A stretch of DNA of 35,198 bases from Campylobacterales bacterium (lineage in GTDB: Bacteria; Campylobacterota; Campylobacteria; Campylobacterales; Sulfurovaceae). The position numbers and the translations under genes are program-made. The stretch lies in contig JAJRRK010000071.1 in assembly GCA_024279555.1 (NCBI GenBank), positions 1 to 35,198 on the forward strand, in the 5' to 3' direction. Shown in pieces: positions 7,235 to 10,291 of this stretch (the first letter of the stretch is position 1; every line of letters starts with the position of its first letter). A model generated the notes under the pieces. It worked only from the letters and a program-made list of their open reading frames with translations, made no database searches and was not told where the DNA came from.

Positions 7235-7684
7235 ATGACCGTAGATGAAATAATGATTGAACACATGATGAGCCCGAAGAATTATGGGACACTGCCTCTT
7301 GCCAACGCCGAAGGGATCGGAAAGAACCCGCAAAATGGCGAGAAGGTCGTCATCTATATTCATGTCAAAGAGGATGAAGCAAAACCCTATATCGATGACA
7401 TTGCATTTAAGGCCATTGGGTGTACAACGACCATCGTCGCCGGTTCGATGCTGACCGAGGAGGCAAAAGGACTTACGCTTGACGGTGCACGCAACCTTGT
7501 TGCCGCGACGATGGAGCTGTTGGAGAAGCTCCCCCCTGAAGATGCCGCCTGTTCGGAGATGGTCGCCCTTGCCATCAAGGCGGCGGTCGATACCTACGAG
7601 AAGCGAAAAGAGGAGAGTGACTACCCCGCCATCACCTATCAGGTCACCAATGACTGTACCCCCAAAGAGGAGAACGCCCAATGA
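7235..7684 (+). CDS. NifU/IscU N-terminal-like scaffold protein, first cysteine missing
   Basis: A 149-residue protein matching the IscU/NifU N-terminal fold: M-M-S-P-K-N-Y-G near the start, F-K-A-I-G-C63, and L-P-P-E-D-A-A-C106-S-E-M-V. IscU builds [2Fe-2S] clusters on three cysteines and an Asp. Here the first site, usually N/A-P-x-C-G-D, reads N-P-Q-N34-G-E36, so Cys is Asn and Asp is Glu. Cys63 and Cys106 remain, while the His before Cys106 is Ala. Residues 130-149 form a divergent tail with one Cys. It may hold a cluster differently, act as an iron or sulfur carrier, or have lost scaffold activity. It is first in an operon, overlapping the ferritin-like gene by 4 bp. Confidence 0.75.
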   Translation: MTVDEIMIEHMMSPKNYGTLPLANAEGIGKNPQNGEKVVIYIHVKEDEAKPYIDDIAFKAIGCTTTIVAGSMLTEEAKGLTLDGARNLVAATMELLEKLPPEDAACSEMVALAIKAAVDTYEKRKEESDYPAITYQVTNDCTPKEENAQ

Positions 7685-8517
7685 AGACCGTACTGATCAA
7701 AACACACGAGGCATGGCTGGAGATGCTCATGGCAGGGTTCATGAGCCATACGCAGAACAAGCAGGTGCTCTTTGATTTTTCTGACATACTGTTCCGTCAC
7801 TTCACATGGGTAGAACAGGAGTTGATCCGTTCGGGTGAAGCATACGACTACAACAGAGACAATATTCCCATTAAAGTAGAACGGTTGAGCCATATGCTCA
7901 AAGCGATCATCTCCCGCCTGCTTGAACTGGAACTTCAGCTTGTAGGCATGGAGAACAAAGCCTTGGCATCTCGCATCAGAACAGACATTACTTACATGGT
8001 CGATGTACTGCATGAGATGAATGATGAAGTGATCACGGCGTTCAATATGGAGCGGAAACTCCCCGGCATCGAACTGACAGAAGAGGCCACAGACGCTTTG
8101 ACTCTCTTTTTGTTCGATGAGAGTTATAAAGAGTATGAGCTCATCATGATTTACAACTATCTCAAGGCACACAGTGACGATGCGTTCCTCAACCGCATCT
8201 TCCAGATACTCATCGACGAGAGTGTGTTCCATTTGCGACAGTTTGGCGACATGATGGCGAAAATGGGCATACTTGCCGTGCCGAGGGTCGTAATGCGCGA
8301 GCTCTATGAAGTTGAAGATGTCGTAGCGTTCCTCAAAGCCGGTATTGAAGAGGAACTTGCCGCCAAAGATGAGTGCAAGAAGCTCTCCGAAGCGGTTGCA
8401 AAGGACTCCAAGCAACTGGCGAAGTTCTTTGACTTCATCAACTATCAGGAGAACTACCATATAGAGTTGATGACCGAAGCACTGGCACACTACAGTAAAA
8501 AGGAAGAGAATGGGTAA
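7681..8517 (+). CDS. Putative ferritin-like/helical iron-binding protein
   Basis: A 278-residue, strongly helical soluble protein with no signal peptide or membrane segment. I do not recognise a named family. Several helices carry carboxylates and histidines in patterns like diiron four-helix bundles: H40 and E45 in the first half, then E153 (Y-E-L-I-M-I-Y), E180-x3-H184 (D-E-S-V-F-H), E223-E-E225 and E257-N-Y-H260 (an ExxH pair). The two halves could be two helical bundles. Overlap by ATGA with the NifU-like gene suggests a joint role in iron or Fe-S handling, but that is inference. It overlaps the psd gene by 8 bp. Confidence 0.6.
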   Translation: MKTVLIKTHEAWLEMLMAGFMSHTQNKQVLFDFSDILFRHFTWVEQELIRSGEAYDYNRDNIPIKVERLSHMLKAIISRLLELELQLVGMENKALASRIRTDITYMVDVLHEMNDEVITAFNMERKLPGIELTEEATDALTLFLFDESYKEYELIMIYNYLKAHSDDAFLNRIFQILIDESVFHLRQFGDMMAKMGILAVPRVVMRELYEVEDVVAFLKAGIEEELAAKDECKKLSEAVAKDSKQLAKFFDFINYQENYHIELMTEALAHYSKKEENG

Positions 8518-9358: not shown

Positions 9359-10291
9359 ATGTTGACTGTCAAAGAGATACAGGAATATGCACAGATACGC
9401 ACCAAAGCAAGGGCTTACCTGTGTTACATCCTAAGCAGAAATATCGCCCACAGTATCGGTAAAGAAGAGGGTGTAACCCTCGATATGGTCATTGGAAAGA
9501 TCAAGAATCTTCAGGAAGTCATACCGCTGGCGGAAGTGATCTATGCGCTTGACGGCAACGGTATTCAGATTACCGAGAATATCTCTTCCAATCCAAAACT
9601 CAACGGTATCGGAAAGGGGGAAGACAGAAGCGACCGTGCCTATTACTACCGTACGCTCAAAGAACACCGCTGTATTCTGACCGATCCTTATCCGTCACTG
9701 GAGACGAATGAGTTGGTGGTCACGGCATCGTTCCCTATTTACGATACGAACAACCGTCTCGTTGCGATCATTTGTGTGGATATTACGCTTAAAAACATTC
9801 TGAGAATGATACACCCGAGCTCTGTTGACTCCAATTTCGGTGTGGCGAGTAAATGGGTCTATGCGGCGTTCTCCGTTGCACTCATGGGGGTAGCACTTTT
9901 ACTTTTCATTAAGGGAATCGCGAGTTTCCTGCATTTTGGCATAAATATTTCCAACATCGACATCAACGAGGTGTTCAAGTCCACCATTTTGCTGACACTC
10001 TCTCTTGCCATTGCTGACCTGGTCAAGGCGATCATGCTCGAAGAGGTACTCGGACGGGAGAAGAAGCACGGTGTAACCGAAGACGAGACCCACCAGACGA
10101 TGGTGAAGTTCCTCGGCTCGATCATCATTGCGCTCTCCATCGAAGCGTTGATGTTGGTATTCAAGTCCGCACTCATCGACCCGACCAAGATCGAGTATGC
10201 GGTCTATCTGATTGTGGGGGTCTCTTTCCTGCTGGTGAGTCTGTCCCTTTATATCAAGTTCAGCCGTCCTGATGCAAAGCATAAAAAGTAA
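9359..10291 (+). CDS. PDC/Cache sensor-like membrane protein
   Basis: A 310-residue protein. Residues about 20-160 resemble a PDC (Cache) ligand-binding domain: an N-terminal helix, D-G-N-G-I-Q-I-T, then R-S-D-R-A-Y-Y-Y and P-Y-P-S-L, and a second strand set ending V-A-I-I-C-V-D-I-T-L. It is followed by four predicted membrane helices (about 165-190, 207-228, 250-272 and 278-302). There is no kinase, HAMP, methyl-accepting or cyclase domain. Unlike typical receptors, no transmembrane helix precedes the PDC domain, so it may be cytoplasmic. Similar proteins occur across Campylobacterota without a known function. AAAAGGA precedes the ATG. Probably in the psd operon. Confidence 0.7.
   Translation: MLTVKEIQEYAQIRTKARAYLCYILSRNIAHSIGKEEGVTLDMVIGKIKNLQEVIPLAEVIYALDGNGIQITENISSNPKLNGIGKGEDRSDRAYYYRTLKEHRCILTDPYPSLETNELVVTASFPIYDTNNRLVAIICVDITLKNILRMIHPSSVDSNFGVASKWVYAAFSVALMGVALLLFIKGIASFLHFGINISNIDINEVFKSTILLTLSLAIADLVKAIMLEEVLGREKKHGVTEDETHQTMVKFLGSIIIALSIEALMLVFKSALIDPTKIEYAVYLIVGVSFLLVSLSLYIKFSRPDAKHKK

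Follow-up and report, generated by a model that had tools for sequence, protein, structure and literature searches.

The locus described here raises the question of what an IscU-like protein is doing once its first-site cysteine and aspartate have been replaced. IscU is strongly conserved, and three cysteines plus this aspartate are taken as defining it. The window (the whole stretch analysed, 35,198 nucleotides of a contig from a Campylobacterales bacterium of the Sulfurovaceae) encodes such a protein, here called U, directly followed by a partner, H278 (Table 1). The IscU-fold variant represented by U is genuine and conserved, and its ferritin-like partner is obligate. Our preferred answer, held tentatively and at a little short of an even chance, is that U and H278 together make up an accessory iron or Fe-S module of two proteins, apart from the housekeeping NifS-NifU system, in which U, with its changed ligand set, exchanges iron or clusters with the diiron protein H278. 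With its different fixed ligand set and obligate ferritin-like partner, the family offers a natural experiment that can separate the ligands needed for cluster assembly from those needed for transfer, and it bears on the route by which iron reaches the scaffold.

Table 1. Coordinates in the window of U, H278 and their principal sites.
Feature	Position	Strand	Basis
U, NifU_N/IscU-fold protein with rearranged ligand set	7235..7684	+	149 aa, ATG start
N34-G35-E36, replacing Cys37-Gly-Asp39 (E. coli IscU numbering)	7334..7342	+	Family alignment
Cys63, invariant	7421..7423	+	54/54 homologues
Ala105-Cys106, pocket His replaced	7547..7552	+	Ala 54/55, Cys 55/55
Cys141, invariant tail cysteine, the family's third Cys	7655..7657	+	55/55
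ATGA, stop of U overlapping start of H278	7681..7684	+	Sequence
H278, double ferritin-like (two four-helix) protein, constant partner of U	7681..8517	+	278 aa; AlphaFold2, profile match
H278 C-terminal ferritin-like domain	8119..8460	+	Invariant columns of 53 homologues, aligned to 9viw ligand positions

The original prediction, that this reading frame encodes a NifU/IscU-like protein, is borne out by a match of PF01592 (NifU_N) to residues 6-126 (76 bits, E 2.8e-21). The AlphaFold2 model, whose input included 54 homologues, has a pLDDT of 89.9, with confidence falling below 50 from residue 143 onward. Its best Foldseek matches in the PDB are all IscU or SufU structures, headed by the H106C and H106A forms of Methanothrix thermoacetophila IscU (E 3e-11 and 1.3e-10). 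By both Pfam and Foldseek, then, U is a single NifU_N/IscU domain with the fold of the canonical IscU/NifU scaffold. None of the NCBIfam equivalog cut-offs is reached (cut-offs in parentheses): U scores 80.3 bits for NifU_clost (187.9), 58.7 for IscU (192.4), 54.3 for NifU (273.3) and 48.5 for SufU (92.5), which marks it as a divergent representative of the fold rather than a standard scaffold.

The first-site motif of U reads N31-P-Q-N34-G-E36, where N34 and E36 are equivalent to Cys37 and Asp39 of E. coli IscU. Among 54 homologues, which come from Sulfurovum and from further families in the order, position 34 is Asn in 52 and Thr in two, and is never Cys; position 36 is Glu in all 54. Sequencing error, a pseudogene or chance as the source of this pattern is ruled out, the substitutions being fixed throughout these homologues. 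A phylum-wide sample, partly overlapping with the 54, gives the same pattern, adding Ser at position 34 and, in one family, Val or Ile at position 105. U thus has neither the trio of cysteines at 37, 63 and 106, nor Asp39, nor a His105 before Cys106. The loss of the first cysteine and the aspartate and the survival of Cys63 and Cys106, all correctly predicted, hold family-wide, and no paired homologue carries the normal cysteine at the first site. What the prediction overlooked is the change of His105 to Ala and the invariant Cys141.

Cys141 is the sole invariant residue past Val110 in 55 sequences, standing amid widely varying tail neighbours, and with Cys63 and Cys106 it makes up the total of three cysteines in U. 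A profile of the tail against solved IscUs aligned no further than the last helix. On the alignment, the family did not just drop a ligand; three cysteines and one acid are retained in a new arrangement, and Cys141 would form part of the metal site.

In a survey of 298 genomes of the phylum, H278 was found in 52 and U in 44, one counted U (from G246) being a fragment. In all 44 the U gene immediately precedes H278 in the same orientation, and no U occurs elsewhere; the gap ranges from -8 to 185 bases (median 10). Fisher's test of the association, in which kinship is left uncorrected, gives p about 8e-45. The prediction had linked the two frames of the window through their ATGA overlap and had named independent genomic contexts as evidence against it; the overlap is present, and no U stands apart from H278. 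H278 itself stands without U in eight genomes, seven of them from a single family and the eighth from a second. In L102, L103 and L106, which belong to one family, H278 without U lies near genes for 2-oxoacid:ferredoxin oxidoreductase-like subunits.

The pair is flanked by exonuclease and PSD genes in Sulfurovum, by truA-like or radical SAM-like genes in another family and by an EF-G-like gene in a third. Since the flanking genes change between families, a common neighbourhood does not account for the pairing. PSD was considered as a further member of the module and ruled out: it comes after the pair in Sulfurovum and in two further families, whereas several others lack this order. At positions 9359-10291 the window encodes a membrane protein with a Cache-like domain, which also comes after PSD in the close relative L034. 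A plasmid search with H278 gave no match, and a scan of the region for sigma-70 promoters and terminators yielded no more sites than shuffled sequence. As to occurrence of the pair beyond the phylum, a pattern scan suited to close relatives returned 39 loci, all labelled Sulfurovum or other Campylobacterota/Epsilonproteobacteria.

Many genomes of the genus, including nearly complete ones, have no U, which is therefore dispensable; this and the genomes with H278 alone weigh against the preferred reading. Two genomes lacking H278 (L125 and L126) encode U-like proteins that are nested in the paired clade (support 98/98) and have lost Cys63 and Cys106; that these residues are lost where H278 is absent argues that they are coupled to the partner. 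The partnerless proteins (L125:1968-2501 and L126:1573-2112) nonetheless retain cysteines in tails of their own, in motifs such as CPYSTTECH.

This distribution bears on the possibility that U is a maturation or iron-delivery factor which loads or repairs the diiron site of H278, the latter then being an oxidase, peroxidase or oxygen sensor. Such a role would fit the observations that U never occurs without H278, while H278 can stand without U, and that the H278 start codon overlaps the end of U. We consider it unlikely, the genomes with H278 alone implying that loading is not strictly dependent on U. An accessory module in which the two proteins exchange iron or a cluster remains the preferred reading.

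The AlphaFold2 model of H278 is all-helical, with eight main helices and a pLDDT of 94.3, and has the four-helix bundles characteristic of the ferritin-like superfamily. The window's own H278 has no Pfam match; 29 of the 53 family members match the rubrerythrin family PF02915, and the family profile gives a full-length match to bacterioferritin 9viw (E 8.6e-13). The top Foldseek matches are ferritins, Dps and Mn catalase, at probability 1.00 but with E values of 0.03 or worse and one domain covered. In the second domain E147/E151/E153, E180, H184, E224/E225, E257 and H260 are invariant in all 53, a complete diiron-type ligand set within one domain as read from the sequence. The expectation of a diiron helical partner is to that extent upheld. 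The first domain lacks such a set: only H40 and D102 are invariant among its ligand-like positions, and E37 is retained in some families only.

Equally improbable, in our judgement, is a sulfur relay of the SufU type, in which E36 and the three cysteines of U would hold zinc or pass persulfide sulfur to a client, with a rubrerythrin-like H278 guarding the step from oxygen or peroxide. A zinc site with four ligands could well be made from one acid and three cysteines, SufU structures occur among the fold matches of U, and the PF02915 matches agree with the guarding role. Against this, U matches IscU better than SufU, both by sequence and by fold, and no desulfurase gene lies beside the pair at the loci examined.

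Canonical NifU was looked for elsewhere in the genome, as had been proposed, and is present (L001/L124), cut by a contig end. No clear NifS was recovered from this draft genome, as expected if nifS sits past the contig end that cuts nifU; in four relatives examined, a gene named as NifS-type by its sequence precedes canonical NifU. The N-terminal domains of canonical NifU retain CGD, FGC and KMHCS in 30/30 related genomes. U and NifU form separate clades (support 100/100), U being closer to archaeal-type IscU, which rules out a recent copy of the genome's own nifU.

Two other NifU_N variants were observed. In L115, L118 and L119 (e.g. L119:1374-1862) a second single-domain NifU_N-like family has NPSNYGQ in place of PxCGD, together with an NCEEC motif; it sits between NrdD (anaerobic ribonucleotide reductase, PF13597) and a radical SAM gene, and is possibly an Fe-S partner of the NrdD activase. 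A full-length NifU paralogue, seen at L129:753-1676 and, as matches of comparable size (about 307-320 aa), in further Sulfurovum genomes, has lost its N-terminal cluster cysteines (GSVSLGEQ, FGTPS, ECEQY), and its C-terminal NifU domain retains CxxC. Within the phylum, cysteines have been lost from the NifU_N fold on several occasions, which would allow U to be a non-catalytic adaptor or regulator binding NifS or H278 through the same fold, with structural or redox cysteines, but this is the least probable of the alternatives, since all paired U proteins strictly retain the three cysteines and E36, unlike the decayed paralogues.

For the preferred accessory module we infer the following function. 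U would retain the IscU fold and hold iron or an Fe-S species through E36, Cys63, Cys106 and, probably, Cys141 of the tail, instead of Cys37, Asp39, Cys63, His105 and Cys106. The ferritin-like diiron site in the second half of H278 would exchange iron, or cluster-derived iron, with U, much as YtfE/RIC does with IscU; metal binding by both proteins, their direct contact and the direction of transfer are thus putative parts of the scheme. The first cysteine of IscU has been proposed as the residue that first accepts sulfur from IscS (PMC9769115). Its loss speaks for U as a carrier or exchanger; de novo assembly by U appears doubtful on this analysis. The original prediction implied that U falls short of what a [2Fe-2S] cluster needs. 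This does not follow: the H106A change makes the IscU cluster more stable, and a D40A/H106A IscU dimer holds its cluster through cysteines only (PMC13423590). A stable cluster is therefore compatible with the His-to-Ala change that U carries naturally.

A more specific form of the proposal, possible and less probable than the general one, is a dedicated iron or Fe-S transfer pair independent of NIF, ISC and SUF, in which one ligand cysteine of the IscU fold has moved from the active-site loop to the C-terminal arm and U functions solely together with a double ferritin-like diiron protein. A search of the literature for the U-H278 pair found no paper, and the data suggest that Sulfurovum and its relatives have a side-branch of iron or iron-sulfur handling not described before.

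Four known systems invite comparison. With the zinc-dependent sulfurtransferase SufU, U shares the IscU fold and a Cys-rich pocket; the match is the weaker one, and the ligand positions differ. With the IscU/NifU N-terminal scaffold (PF01592; best structures 7cnv/7c8n) it shares fold, length, Cys63, Cys106 and the NP..G. loop, and differs in Cys37 to Asn, Asp39 to Glu, His105 to Ala and the extra tail cysteine, in having neither a BFD nor a NifU C-terminal domain, and in the absence of an adjacent nifS. The E...H and ExxH motifs of bacterioferritin 9viw recur in the second domain of H278, whereas the first domain is without most of the ligands (L37 in the window for E; D102-I-T-Y for D-E-N-H). 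In E. coli the diiron protein YtfE binds both IscU and IscS and stimulates the formation of clusters on IscU (PMC8117158). The likeness is one of outline, a helical diiron protein going together with a protein of IscU fold; for U and H278 the association is one of gene pairing. YtfE is hemerythrin-like and its partner is canonical IscU, whereas H278 is double ferritin-like and shares a fixed unit of two genes with the altered U.
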